NCBI GenBank assembly: GCA_902520495.1
Contig: CABYNW010000009.1
Location: 1-45,541 of the forward strand
Length of the DNA: 45,541 nucleotides
From: an uncultured SAR86 cluster bacterium
Lineage (GTDB): Bacteria > Pseudomonadota > Gammaproteobacteria > Magnimaribacterales > D2472
Direction of reading: 5' to 3'
Positions within the stretch are counted from its first letter, which is position 1. The number at the start of each line of letters is the position of its first letter. Of this stretch, positions 28,503-35,266 are shown piece by piece. The notes under the pieces are model-generated. The model searched no databases. It was given only the letters and a program-made list of their open reading frames with translations, and was not told the origin of the DNA. Made by a program: the position numbers and the translations under genes.

Positions 28503-28545
28503 ATTTACTAGGAAAAGACTATGAACAAAAATGAATTAAAAGAGT
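28471..28545 (+). repeat. 75-bp direct repeat, left copy
   Basis: Runs from the codons for the acidic DIGDFDGE tail, through the stop, the AGGAAAAGACT ribosome binding site and the ATG, to codon 8 of the next gene. It matches 29290-29364 with two mismatches, giving an 819-base period that contains exactly one gp32-like gene. Confidence 0.95.
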
Positions 28546-29321
28546 ACAACGACTATTACAGGAGTATCTATGGCGATGAAAGATTCTGGCAACTTGAACT
28601 AGACAAGTCTGGCAATGGTTATGCAGTACTTCGTTTTCTACCAGCAGCCAATGGTGAAGAATTACCGTGGATCCAATATTGGGATCATGGTTTTCAAGGA
28701 CCTGGTGGTTGGTTCATGGAGAAATCTTTAACAACTTTGGGCAACAAATGTCCAGTTAGTGAGTACAACAATAGTCTTTGGATTAGTGGTGACGAAGCTC
28801 AAAAGGATCAAGCCAGAAAACAAAAACGAAGAGTACACTATGTAGCGAATGTTCTTGTTGTCTCAGATCCGACTCATCCTGAGAACGAAGGTAAAGTAAT
28901 GCTTTATCGTTTCGGTAAAAAAATCTTTGAGAAAGTCAAACGTGTTATGCAACCTCAGTTCGAAGATGAGAATCCAATCAATCCTTTTGATATGTGGGAA
29001 GGTGCTGACTTTAAACTTAAAGTTAGAAAAGTAGACGGTTATTGGAACTATGATAAATCAGAGTTCGCATCAGTAGCTCCTATTTCAGAAGATGATTCTG
29101 TACTAGAAACGCTCTACAATAAACAGCACTCTTTAGCAGAGTTGATCGCACCTGATCAATTCATGTCTTATGATGAAATGAAGGTTAAGTTGGATAGGGC
29201 TTTAGGTCTTAGTGGTGATGTCTCTACAGTTAAGTTGGATAGGGTTTTAGGTCTTAGTGGTGATGTCTCTACTGCTACAGCTGAGAGTATCGCTGATATC
29301 GGAGATTTTGATGGTGAATAA
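28521..29321 (+). CDS. T4 gp32-like single-stranded DNA-binding protein
   Basis: A 266-residue protein whose core (about residues 21-182) matches the OB-fold core of T4-type phage gp32. The blocks are LELDKSGNGYAVLRFLPA, LPWIQYWDHGFQGPGGW, SLTTLGNKCPVSEYN, ARKQKRRVHYVANVLVV, HPENEGKVMLYRFGKKIF, NPINPFDMWEGADFKLKV and GYWNYDKSEF. gp32 coats single-stranded DNA in phage replication and recombination. Only one cysteine of the T4 zinc site remains, as in many cyanophage versions. The basic N-terminal cooperativity segment is replaced by MNKNELKEYNDYYRS. It keeps an acidic tail ending DIGDFDGE. No other phage genes are nearby, and G+C looks higher than its neighbours by eye. Confidence 0.85.
   Translation: MNKNELKEYNDYYRSIYGDERFWQLELDKSGNGYAVLRFLPAANGEELPWIQYWDHGFQGPGGWFMEKSLTTLGNKCPVSEYNNSLWISGDEAQKDQARKQKRRVHYVANVLVVSDPTHPENEGKVMLYRFGKKIFEKVKRVMQPQFEDENPINPFDMWEGADFKLKVRKVDGYWNYDKSEFASVAPISEDDSVLETLYNKQHSLAELIAPDQFMSYDEMKVKLDRALGLSGDVSTVKLDRVLGLSGDVSTATAESIADIGDFDGE
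29184..29273 (+). repeat. 45-bp tandem repeat inside the gp32-like gene
   Basis: Two in-frame copies (29184-29228 and 29229-29273) differing at two bases. They encode VKLDRALGLSGDVST and VKLDRVLGLSGDVST in the linker between the OB core and the acidic tail. Near identity implies a recent duplication. Confidence 0.95.
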
Positions 29322-29364: not shown

Positions 29365-29513
29365 TTAATGAAAAGCTGTTAAATGAAATTGGTGAAGAAA
29401 GCTTTCTTCAAGACATTTTTGGATTAACGATGGGAAGCGGCGATAATTTTTGGATGATAGATAGCGACGAGATGGAACAAATATTTGAAAACATGAGAAA
29501 TATACTTAAATAA
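29340..29513 (+). CDS. Small acidic protein sharing the gp32-like N-terminus, 57 residues
   Basis: The frame starts MNKNEIKEFNEKLLNE, as the gp32-like protein does (MNKNELKEY), then diverges to ESFLQDIFGLTMGSGDNFW and ends ENMRNILK. Start context and ribosome binding site (AGGAAAAG) are those of the repeat. The stop overlaps the ankyrin gene start (TAATG). It may be the gene originally present before the gp32-like unit was inserted or duplicated. Confidence 0.55.
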   Translation: MNKNEIKEFNEKLLNEIGEESFLQDIFGLTMGSGDNFWMIDSDEMEQIFENMRNILK

Positions 29514-31033
29514 TGTTTGGCTCTAAAAGTGATGAAAAAAAGTTATTTAAAAGCATATTAGAAAATGATTTAAATACCTTAAGAGAACTAGCTCCGAAGA
29601 TTAAGAATAAAAAGATCTTAAATAAAGATAACCAAACACCCTTTATGATTGCAATGAAGAATTACAATCTAGATATTTGTGAATTATTGTCAAAAGAATC
29701 TTTTCCCATAGAGGCAATTAAAGGCTCCGCTTCTGCAATATGCTCAGCGCTTTTGGATTCTGATTTAAGACAGCTTGATATAGCGGTTAAGTGTGGAGCT
29801 GATGTTAATAAGCCTCTCCAAATACAGGTTGAAACCTACCCGTTGGCACTTGCGATAAACCATGGAAAAGTTTCTTTTGCAAAAAGATTAATAGACCTAG
29901 GAGCAAATACAGATATTTTTTGTCCGGTTGAAGATGCGGGCATTGCTGACGAATTCCCGCTTTCGCATATCGCAGCTCAAACATGCAATTTTGATTTGTT
30001 TGATACTCTTTTAGATAAGTCGAAAGATTTTTATACAAAGAAAGGAATCTCAATATATTGGTCGCTTTTATCTTCAAAAGAGAAAAGAGAAACCGATAGA
30101 TTTAAAAACAAAGCACTTAAAGCACTATTTGAAAAGAAAGTTCCTTTTGAAAACAAGATGCAAAATGAAGTTATTGATAAAAATGCAATGAGTTTACTGT
30201 TCACACAGAAAATGGAGTCAAATGAGAAAATTAAAAGAGAAAAGCTTATATTAGAAGTTTTAGAAAACAATCTTGTTAAATTTGATTTTATAGATATTCA
30301 TAAAAATAATTTACTAAAATTATCTGCCCGGATGGGCTCGAAGAAACTTGTAGAATACTTTATCGGCAAAGGACTGTCTCCATACGTACAAGATGATCAG
30401 GGCTATAATGCATTTCATAATGCTGCTGCTTTAAGAGACTGCGATTTGTCATATTCAATAATGTTAATCTTACTTGGGCCTAAAAATTATGATCTTTTTT
30501 CACATAATAAAGATAAGCAAGAAGCTAATAGGGGTCTTGATCTTGCAAATGAAGATGGGCACTCACCAACTCACCTAGCTTTTAACTATAATAATTATGA
30601 ATCAGCAAGAGTGTTAATAGAAAAGGGCGCAAAAATACCTTATTCAGCATGGAAAAGAGACGAAGAAAGAGTGCCTTTATGGATACAGCTTATATGTCAT
30701 CTTGAAACCCAAGAGGATATAGACAATTTAATCTATTTTATTGAAAGCGGTTTAGATATAAAAGCATATAAATCTAAAACTTATAAATTTGATCTCTCCA
30801 TATCAAGCGTAATTGGGGCAAGAATGTTACTTCAGGATAAATTTAAGTCTTACAAAGATTATGCGTGGTATGGCTTTTATGAGAAAGATAAAAATAAGAT
30901 ATTCAATAAAATAGACCTGAAACCACTTTATAAACTAGTAAAAAATAAAGATAAAACGAATTCAATTATTAACAAGCTAGAACTAGGTATAGAATATATA
31001 GACGGTCTATTAAAAGAAAGAGAAGAAAAATGA
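29513..31033 (+). CDS. Ankyrin-repeat protein
   Basis: A 506-residue cytoplasmic-looking protein. Ankyrin-type helices are visible at about residues 38-65 (NQTPFMIAMKNYNLDICELL), 106-135 (TYPLALAINHGKVSFAKRLIDLGANTD, residues marking the consensus), 262-305 and 343-372 (GHSPTHLAFNYNNYESARVL). The C-terminal third has no recognised motif. Bacterial ankyrin proteins are protein-binding scaffolds, in some cases immunity or host-interaction factors. It overlaps the next gene by four bases (ATGA), so the pair is co-translated. Confidence 0.8.
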   Translation: MFGSKSDEKKLFKSILENDLNTLRELAPKIKNKKILNKDNQTPFMIAMKNYNLDICELLSKESFPIEAIKGSASAICSALLDSDLRQLDIAVKCGADVNKPLQIQVETYPLALAINHGKVSFAKRLIDLGANTDIFCPVEDAGIADEFPLSHIAAQTCNFDLFDTLLDKSKDFYTKKGISIYWSLLSSKEKRETDRFKNKALKALFEKKVPFENKMQNEVIDKNAMSLLFTQKMESNEKIKREKLILEVLENNLVKFDFIDIHKNNLLKLSARMGSKKLVEYFIGKGLSPYVQDDQGYNAFHNAAALRDCDLSYSIMLILLGPKNYDLFSHNKDKQEANRGLDLANEDGHSPTHLAFNYNNYESARVLIEKGAKIPYSAWKRDEERVPLWIQLICHLETQEDIDNLIYFIESGLDIKAYKSKTYKFDLSISSVIGARMLLQDKFKSYKDYAWYGFYEKDKNKIFNKIDLKPLYKLVKNKDKTNSIINKLELGIEYIDGLLKEREEK

Positions 31034-33133: not shown

Positions 33134-33205
33134 ATTTTAAAAGCATGCTTGTTAATTCCTACAAAGTTTTATAAGGTAATTGCCTAGAAGATTTATATAT
33201 ACGTT

Positions 33206-35266
33206 TTGAACAAAATTAAGATTTTATTATGGTATTCGTCAAATAAGCTCGGAGAAGCTGCTTCAACAATTATTAATTTTGAAAAGAAAGCGGTTTCATG
33301 TATACAAAAACAAATTAATCTTAATGGGGGTATTGGTGGAATCCCAGTAGAGATAGACTTTTATGATATACCGCATAATAGGGCAGGACATGACAAGGAT
33401 GCATGGCTTTATTATAAAAATATATTTGATTCGAGTAACTATACTTTTGCAAGAAGCCCAGGAGCCTTTGCCGGACTAAGTAAATATAAACTCGGTTATC
33501 TAGAGTCTATAGCATCTGACAAGACAATTATATTTAGTGATCTTACAATTCCTAAAAGCATAGATGTATTAAAATCAAATATTATTGATATGCGATCTAA
33601 TGCATTTACAGATGCAGAAAAATCACTAGCAGAAAGATCAAAGATCAATCTTGAATTATTAAAAAAAAATAGAACTTTTTATATAGCTAACTTTGGTGCA
33701 TCAAGTTCTGTTCTGGCACAAAAAGAAGATTTAGAAAAAGATGAAATATTTATATTTGATATATCCCCAAAAATTCATGAAGACAGTCAAAAACTTCAAA
33801 AAGATTTAAATAAATTTTTTGAATCTCATAATGCTGATAAAAACGATTTAATAAACATGGGTCTCGTCCCCAACACTATCAAGCAAAGTATTATTAATTG
33901 TATTCAAAATTTTAATAAAGATATAACAATAATGACTGGATCAGCAGGCTCAGCATACTTAGACTATCAGGAAATTAATTACCCAATTTTATTTAGAGAA
34001 GATGCAAATTTTGATGTATATCTTTCAATGGAGGATTTCATTGAAAAAATTGGAGAAGATCTGTCCTTAAAAGAAAAACAAATATGCAACCAGCGCTTTA
34101 CACAATTTGAAATTCCATTATTAATTAAGAAAATATGTGATAGAGATAAAATTACATTTTCCTCCCAAGAAGAACTAGTTAAAAAAGTCTTAATGTCTAT
34201 CAATGAGACTGATGGAAGTAAAGATATCTATATGGGAGTTTCAAAAGACCTATCATTTAAAGACAATAGAAATAATAAAAAGACCGCAGCATTAGTAGAG
34301 CTAGCGCTTCCTTCAAGAGATAAATCAGATGTGGTTAAAACTTTATATAAAAATCAGCTTTGTATAATTGATGAGCAAGAAAAGATTAACTCAGTTATAG
34401 CATTTAATATTGATGTTGAAAGAATTACCAATGTTTCGATTGAGGAAGGAATTTTTGGAGCAGAATTTTATTTAGACATTACATCAGAAAACGAAAATCC
34501 CATAAATTCAATTAAATTTAATAATCTTAGTTCTTTAAATCCTAAACATGAGGTTCGAAGATTGGACCACATACAGATTGATAATTTATATTCATCTAGG
34601 TATGTAGTAACTTCTAATTTTGATTTTAATCCGATTGCTGATAATTATCCGTTTGATGAACAATTTATTTATATTGGGATTTCGGGTACAGAAAAAGATT
34701 CTCAAATTCAGCCAGTTCCAGAAGAATACATTGATGATGAATTTAAGATAGATGGATGGTCTATGGTGTATGCAAAATGTGGAATAAATAGAAAAAAGAA
34801 TTGGGTAGCGCTTAATAACAATTTAGAAAAAATTCCAAAAATTGGAGAAGAAATTAGACTTGGATGGGAGCTTAAGAGAAAAAATTCGATGACTTTATTA
34901 AAAATAGGCATCCCATTATTTTTCTTATATATACTTCTTTATTACACTCTTTTTGTACCATTAGAGAATATCGAGACTGCTTTTAATAATATTAATCTTG
35001 CATTCTTGTCTAGCATTGCCTTGTATTTTTCAACCGAAAGACCTCAACCCTTAAAAATGACTACAATAGATGTTGTATTTGCTTTTTTCTATATAATGGC
35101 AGGCATTTCATTGATATCGATTGTATTTGTAGAGTTTTACCCTGACTACTATAGTGCAGTTATAAATCCATTGCGCTTTTTATTGCCCGCCTCAATTATC
35201 GGATTGGGTCTTTTCATCAAGAAAAGGCTTGCCTCAAGAAAATACAAACCATCTATAACTAAATAA
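33206..35266 (+). CDS. PBP-domain / pentameric ligand-gated ion channel fusion
   Basis: A 686-residue protein in two parts. Residues 1 to about 370 resemble a type-1 periplasmic binding protein (branched-chain amino acid binding type), with IKILLWYSSNKLGEAA and INLNGGIGGIPVEIDFYDI at the start. Residues about 395-560 look like the beta-sandwich extracellular domain of Cys-loop-type channels, with the hallmark YPFDEQ at 481-486. Four helices follow: 563-584, 593-610 (pore-lining position), 619-645 starting after TTIDVVFAFF, and 652-671. The start is TTG 33206; an in-frame TAG at 33185 rules out a longer N-terminus, and no signal peptide is visible, which is odd for a domain expected outside the membrane. 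Ligand unknown. Confidence 0.7.
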   Translation: MNKIKILLWYSSNKLGEAASTIINFEKKAVSCIQKQINLNGGIGGIPVEIDFYDIPHNRAGHDKDAWLYYKNIFDSSNYTFARSPGAFAGLSKYKLGYLESIASDKTIIFSDLTIPKSIDVLKSNIIDMRSNAFTDAEKSLAERSKINLELLKKNRTFYIANFGASSSVLAQKEDLEKDEIFIFDISPKIHEDSQKLQKDLNKFFESHNADKNDLINMGLVPNTIKQSIINCIQNFNKDITIMTGSAGSAYLDYQEINYPILFREDANFDVYLSMEDFIEKIGEDLSLKEKQICNQRFTQFEIPLLIKKICDRDKITFSSQEELVKKVLMSINETDGSKDIYMGVSKDLSFKDNRNNKKTAALVELALPSRDKSDVVKTLYKNQLCIIDEQEKINSVIAFNIDVERITNVSIEEGIFGAEFYLDITSENENPINSIKFNNLSSLNPKHEVRRLDHIQIDNLYSSRYVVTSNFDFNPIADNYPFDEQFIYIGISGTEKDSQIQPVPEEYIDDEFKIDGWSMVYAKCGINRKKNWVALNNNLEKIPKIGEEIRLGWELKRKNSMTLLKIGIPLFFLYILLYYTLFVPLENIETAFNNINLAFLSSIALYFSTERPQPLKMTTIDVVFAFFYIMAGISLISIVFVEFYPDYYSAVINPLRFLLPASIIGLGLFIKKRLASRKYKPSITK

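Follow-up and report, generated by a model that had tools for sequence, protein, structure and literature searches.

A SAR86 clade of signal-less binding-protein/channel fusions that has likely turned over in the membrane

A 686-aa open reading frame in a contig of an uncultured SAR86 bacterium, within the 45,541-nucleotide stretch analyzed here (the window), raises the question of how a ligand-gated channel with a binding-protein sensor is placed in the membrane when nothing ahead of the sensor could export it. The initial annotation left three options, namely a sensor that faces the cytoplasm, export by another route, or a wrong start caused by an upstream frameshift. The gene and its parts, all on the plus strand, are:

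33206–35266 (+): whole gene, fusion of a type-1 binding protein (PBP) and a Pro-loop channel (686 aa; TTG start at 33206, stop codon at 35264–35266; homologues found)
33185–33187 (+): in-frame TAG, 21 bases 5' of the TTG, which bars an upstream signal peptide (upstream in-frame stops in L001 and L002 too)
33206–34195 (+): type-1 PBP-like sensor module without signal peptide, residues 1–330 (strand/helix alternation in the model, Foldseek matches to LivJ/LBP, PBP profile match; boundary approximate)
34391–34873 (+): Pro-loop ligand-binding beta sandwich (LBD), residues 396–556 (boundaries approximate)
34646–34663 (+): Pro loop YPFDEQ, residues 481–486 (Y-P-F-D and Q invariant in 10/10 alignment rows)
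34877–34879 (+): pre-M1 arginine R558, putative partner of the Pro-loop Asp (invariant in 10/10 rows; role according to the available portion of PMC4795631)
34904–34957 (+): helix M1, residues 567–584, probable N-in signal anchor
34985–35029 (+): pore helix M2, residues 594–608 (by alignment with control pLGICs)
35030–35071 (+): M2–M3 loop STERPQPLKMTTID (ERPQPL in 8/8 SAR86 rows)
35072–35137 (+): helix M3, residues 623–644
35138–35176 (+): M3–M4 loop, short, with one basic residue (usual site of the basic cytoplasmic loop)
35177–35218 (+): helix M4
35219–35263 (+): strongly basic C-terminal tail KKRLASRKYKPSITK, seven K/R and no acidic residue (basic tail of 4–7 K/R in 8/8 SAR86 rows)

Fold and profile comparisons confirmed that the N-terminal half of the window protein is a type-1 PBP and the C-terminal half a Pro-loop channel with four helices, as the initial annotation had proposed in describing a type-1 PBP-like module, a Cys-loop-type beta sandwich with YPFDEQ and four membrane helices. 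Taken alone, the protein had no match in a Pfam scan (five other SAR86 fusion proteins gave nothing over the cut-off) and a single weak match in a PDB sequence search, to the squid sensory receptor CRB1 (E 8e-4, residues 544–641). The AlphaFold model alternates strand and helix over residues 1–330 and runs from strands to helices over residues 396–686; the models are of low confidence (mean pLDDT 49.5 and 48.3, with three sequences in the alignment), and for this reason the predicted structure was set aside as a proof of topology. Searching with this low-confidence model, Foldseek returned Leu/Ile/Val-binding proteins (E ~2e-6) together with GLIC (1.3e-5), and for the channel half alone GLIC at 1.2e-3 with none under 0.001. 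In VIA-align, all 50 of the 50 matches listed were pLGICs or pLGIC chimaeras, the best having a Z of 14.7 and an rmsd of 14.1 over 212 aligned positions (residues 387–678 of the low-confidence model). A profile of ten related sequences matched amino-acid-type PBPs (3e-6) and ELIC/GLIC (2e-4 to 4e-3) in the PDB, each at the expected half; an earlier profile lacking four sister sequences found nothing significant among PDB sequences (best E 0.17, a branched-chain PBP at 0.48), and it was the addition of these four that made the matches significant. No Cys lies beside YPFDEQ, which places the protein outside the animal-type Cys-loop subset.

A search of 203 genomes of the SAR86 order found ten with a match, spread over four genus and two family labels, and eight of these retain the 5' end (the window, L001, L002, L006, L007, L008, L010 and L012). 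Seven of the eight are whole fusions under three genus labels, and L012, under the fourth, is a sensor half only that stops at the contig end; in the other two matching genomes the gene is truncated at a contig end (G038) or broken (G029). All eight starts agree, lying ~3 to 13 residues ahead of the first PBP strand, and a signal peptide is absent from every one (by hydropathy for seven, by eye for L012), so that the comparison of homologous N-termini called for at the outset bears out the start in the window. In 15-residue Kyte–Doolittle windows over the first 140 residues, the maximum was 1.28 in eight SAR86 frames, a set in which L009 (5' end cut) stands in place of L012; L010 has a 1.76 window at residue 202, within the PBP.

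Could the true N-terminus lie further upstream with its signal peptide, hidden by a frameshift, a sequencing error or recoding? TTG is a weak start, and two loci offer something hydrophobic ahead of the PBP: L008 a short GLAYFFSLMSL, in frame at and just before the first ATG, and L012 a mildly hydrophobic stretch upstream (KKIFSFILSLTYRATTSNLA, best 15-residue hydropathy 0.91). The former could be started only from an ATT, however, and is not kept in L011, a copy 92.6% identical to L008 (INLKIKLNPFLSLMST); the latter is out of frame. The 150 bases upstream, read by eye in three frames at seven loci (L007 left out), hold no shared coding or signal, and in L010 a TAA codon immediately precedes the ATG, while the preceding open frame, regarded as the upstream gene, stops 5 bases short of it. 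The in-frame stop that the initial annotation placed 21 bases before the TTG was verified as a TAG, and its option of a wrong start through a frameshift lost nearly all its ground: given eight signal-less genomes under four genus labels, in-frame stops and upstream neighbors that differ between genera, a hidden upstream start is very unlikely. Read-through from the upstream dehydrogenase gene, which is in the same frame in the window, was also considered and rejected, as that gene is followed by two stops in the window and by several in L001, is in a different frame in L002, and is replaced by other neighbors in other genera.

Gene order is shared by the window, L001 and L002, where a short-chain dehydrogenase gene, the fusion and a glyoxalase-like gene (starting 6 bases downstream of the fusion in the window) are followed by a PF03601 membrane protein, these neighbors being identified by Pfam in the window and by resemblance in L001 and L002. 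The neighbors of L006–L010 are different, and genomic context therefore does not name the ligand. The 5-kb loci L007 (G084) and L006 (G085) are ~91% identical overall, and their fusion proteins look identical save for their first residues and for a block of ~30 that follows GGIG, a pattern that points to recombination or chimeric assembly in the PBP module. The G029 copy (L011/L013) that is 92.6% identical to L008 has its frame broken by several stops and is a pseudogene or the product of assembly errors. Elsewhere in the window, at 28521–29321 (+), lies a T4 gp32-like single-strand DNA-binding protein (PF08804, E 1.4e-42) adjoining an ankyrin-repeat ORF at 29513–31033, which is possibly a phage-derived patch.

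As controls we used 61 pLGIC frames, taken from the loci of the best 20–30 matches per search across 369 genomes of the class, 398 of the phylum and two samples of 150 that overlap, drawn from the order to which G793 and G917 belong, with L019 and L016 added. Nearly all of them (56 of 61) have, N-terminal to the channel match, a 15-residue window with a hydropathy of at least 1.70. Among the five others, three (L016, the second frame of L044 and L072) extend beyond the fetched stretch, L037 is short and begins ~12 bases from a contig end, and the second piece of L067 is part of a broken gene whose first piece does have a hydrophobic window. Sensor fusions are found among these controls too: Peripla_BP_6 was identified in L019 (6e-46; leader MMDRCLRKGVLLALMLWLAPAMALA) and L039 (3e-45), all six long controls scanned have a PBP in Pfam, and at least eight frames carry a fusion or PBP signal, with the remainder judged by eye only. 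L079 (G1069) has two tandem pLGIC frames of 374 and 351 aa in one genome. L016 (G070) is itself from a SAR86-order genome and holds a real pLGIC of another type, which has the canonical charge pattern, scores under the Pfam cut-offs and has its 5' end cut by the contig end; it and L017 gave two PF02931 matches across the 203 genomes of the order, both under the cut-off, and L017 has no pLGIC among its listed frames. A search for PF02932 found none in the window's own genome and was silent in every control genome as well. No relative was found in two scans of viral contigs or among plasmids.

The controls nearest to the SAR86 proteins among the matches listed are L029, L030, L070–L074 and L085 (channel-profile E 5e-31 to 3e-38). 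By eye and hydropathy, seven of these eight have a signal peptide ahead of the sensor, and these are all that have a visible 5' end (L029, L030, L070, L071, L073, L074 and L085); the four sister proteins scanned (L029, L070, L071 and L074) all contain Peripla_BP_6, with E from 1e-14 to 2e-19. The mature N-terminus of the sister proteins aligns with the SAR86 start, as in LTIAVMYSS of L071 against IKILLWYSS. In a 53-row tree with an arbitrary root, in which the program warns that SAR86 is attached by long branches, the SAR86 proteins form one group (100/99) and the nearest set a second (99/99), and a 100/99 branch joins SAR86 and this signal-bearing sister clade against the rest. The simplest reading of these sequences is that the SAR86 lineage lost an ancestral signal peptide. 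Homologues with a normal signal peptide, which the initial annotation had named as the evidence to look for against a leaderless protein, do therefore exist, but outside SAR86 only, and there the membrane charges are normal as well.

In known pLGICs the M1–M2 and M3–M4 loops are cytosolic. We found that the SAR86 proteins carry 0–1 K/R in the M1–M2 loop, 1–2 in the M3–M4 loop, 2–4 in the pre-M1 segment and 4–7 in the tail, counted over eight rows of which seven are distinct (L006 and L007 do not differ in the part compared) and which leave out L012, a sensor half only, and include L009, with its 5' end cut. Control tails have 0–2 K/R in 30 rows, and longer ones, for example in L070, have as many as 4. 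The alignment-based M3–M4 minus tail count is −3 to −6 in the eight SAR86 rows versus 0 to +5 for 30 controls; a second set of 45 controls, which omits 12 frames with no Pro-loop motif where one was expected, frames with an incomplete 3' end and L084 (a duplicate of L079), gives −2 to +5. Counted free of alignment (K+R), tail minus M3–M4 is +3 to +7 in 8/8 SAR86 proteins versus −6 to 0 in 54 controls, and N-terminal-side loops minus the others is +7 to +13 in 8/8 versus −6 to +5; neither measure overlaps between the two groups. The 54 are the controls longer than 300 aa that have a complete 3' end, again without L084; they include L049 and L051, in which the final 190 residues may lie outside the channel.

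The summed charge bias was rejected as the sole criterion: the control L070, which has a signal peptide, reaches −6, the same value as in L008, the least extreme of the SAR86 rows, and weight was therefore put on tail minus M3–M4 and on the alignment-free count. On the summed bias the control pLGICs lie near zero, which indicates that the charge rule is weak for canonical pLGICs, where the leader sets the orientation, and the leaderless SAR86 rows sit far on the N-in side. Around the first helix, the window protein carries a net charge of +3 across the 15 residues ahead of M1 and −2 in the loop that follows, which by the charge-difference rule means N-in; control M1 flanks lean slightly the same way, more weakly. 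Ectodomain Cys counts (6, 4, 1, 3, 3, 6, 0 and 2 in SAR86; 0 in 12 of 17 long controls) weakly support a cytosolic sensor, the signal not being clean because L029 and L030, the nearest controls, carry 2 Cys each.

The positive-inside check on the loops thus came out on the side of the inverted topology that the initial annotation had suggested, with a charge distribution reversed relative to the signal-peptide relatives. We consider it probable, with good confidence, that this pLGIC has inverted after losing its signal peptide, with the PBP, the LBD and the C-terminus now cytosolic and the pore gated by a cytosolic ligand; we infer the location of the SAR86 LBD from the charges. The normal N-out orientation would instead require a ~560-residue N-terminal part to be exported without a signal peptide, by M1 as a reverse signal anchor or by another route, leaving the sensor periplasmic as in relatives. 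We know of no case of signal-less translocation of so long an N-tail. The retained PBP and LBD folds would suit such an arrangement, and prokaryotic relatives in the available portion of PMC549065 show it and carry a signal peptide; the SAR86 proteins, however, have no hydrophobic N-terminal segment, their loop and tail charges match N-in, and nothing was found in support of export by another route. We regard the N-out orientation as unlikely.

Would an inverted protein still work as a channel? The reading frame is kept in relatives at 73, 66 and 51% identity, and dN/dS, computable in five of six comparisons, is 0.05–0.29 (dS is saturated and the values are rough); this low ratio and the conserved frame indicate that the ORF is more than chance, and selection on the fusion is purifying. 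The two halves evolve differently, with identities of 65, 55 and 40% for the PBP half versus 84, 81 and 65% for the channel half, and dN/dS of 0.11–0.29 versus 0.045 and 0.13 (one channel-half pair without computable dS, and dS again saturated), from which it appears that the channel is tightly held and the sensor drifts or adapts. D484 of the Pro loop and R558 before M1, the putative gating salt-bridge pair, are invariant in 10/10 alignment rows, as are the M1 kink proline P570 and both W518 and W554, one of which may be the beta-9 tryptophan of Pro-loop receptors, and the M2–M3 loop proline is present as ERPQP in 8/8 SAR86 rows. Upper M2 (FLSSIALYFS, then ERPQPL) is nearly invariant across SAR86 and lower M2 is variable. 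A protein that is inverted and no longer a gated channel, serving instead as a receptor or scaffold that faces the cytosol and signals in another way, would be in keeping with the fast divergence of the PBP half and the variable lower M2; it fits poorly with the invariant Pro loop, pre-M1 Arg and M1 Pro, the nearly invariant upper M2 and the purifying selection, and no further signaling domain is seen in the chain, making this alternative quite unlikely. Placing pore residues by M2 prime numbering, we found acidic residues near the far end of M2 (E in the window, D in L010), a hint that cations may permeate.

Fusions of PBP and pLGIC are already known, and within the literature searched (open-licence PMC papers only) the signal-less, charge-reversed clade is the new aspect. 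Tasneem et al. 2004 described PBP-I fusions to ART-LGIC in bacteria, and according to the available portion of PMC549065 every prokaryotic protein in that work is predicted to begin with a signal peptide ahead of the LBD. The module order given there (PBP type 1, Pro-loop LBD, four helices) is that of the SAR86 fusion, and the related fusions found here are homologous to it by profile, fold and tree; unlike those of PMC549065, in the same portion, the SAR86 proteins have no signal peptide and reversed membrane charges. The SAR86 fusion is homologous to the pLGIC superfamily and is not a member of the exported PBP-fusion class, because a signal peptide was looked for and is absent. With GLIC, ELIC and the animal Cys-loop receptors it shares the fold, [F/Y]PxD, the pre-M1 Arg, the M1 Pro and the M2–M3 Pro, and it differs from them in its extra PBP module, its missing signal peptide, a basic tail with an M3–M4 loop that is not basic, and no Cys pair at the loop. 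These Pro-loop receptor signatures, including [F/Y]PxD and the salt bridge of the pre-M1 Arg with the Pro-loop Asp, are described in the available portion of PMC4795631, where Jaiteh et al. 2016 removed terminal sequence parts. DeCLIC is likewise a pLGIC with additional N-terminal domains, which unlike the SAR86 PBP are two jelly-roll lobes (as far as the available text of PMC9897478 goes) and are called periplasmic in the corresponding part of PMC12664993. Among the Foldseek matches is the amide receptor AmiC (PDB 1qnl, 1pea), which has the type-1 PBP fold and, unlike the SAR86 fusion, is a soluble regulator with no channel. AmiC works in the cytosol. Our search of open-licence PMC papers returned nothing relevant on pLGICs with inverted topology or a cytosolic sensor, or on SAR86 and ligand-gated ion channels. 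To our knowledge no inverted pLGIC has been described; reversal of topology among homologues occurs in other membrane families.

In the mechanism that we favor, a SAR86 ancestor would have lost the signal peptide ahead of the PBP module, after which M1 would serve as an N-in signal anchor, and basic residues on the C-terminal tail rather than on the M3–M4 loop would hold both ends of the chain in the cytosol. The PBP module and beta sandwich would then hang into the cytosol and bind a small metabolite there, and the pore of the putative pentamer would open through the usual coupling of Pro loop, pre-M1 and M2–M3, so that ions would cross the inner membrane on an internal, not an external, signal. 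It seems likely on the whole that a clade of Cys-loop-type channels, inside-out kin of the neurotransmitter receptors, flipped during evolution and is gated by a cytosolic binding-protein module that reports internal metabolite levels as ion flow. If so, the gating machine of this family would work with its sensor in the cytosol, nature would have supplied in the SAR86 clade a clear example of a membrane protein whose topology and charge pattern were reversed together, and there would be a first guess at the role of these channels in widespread ocean bacteria.
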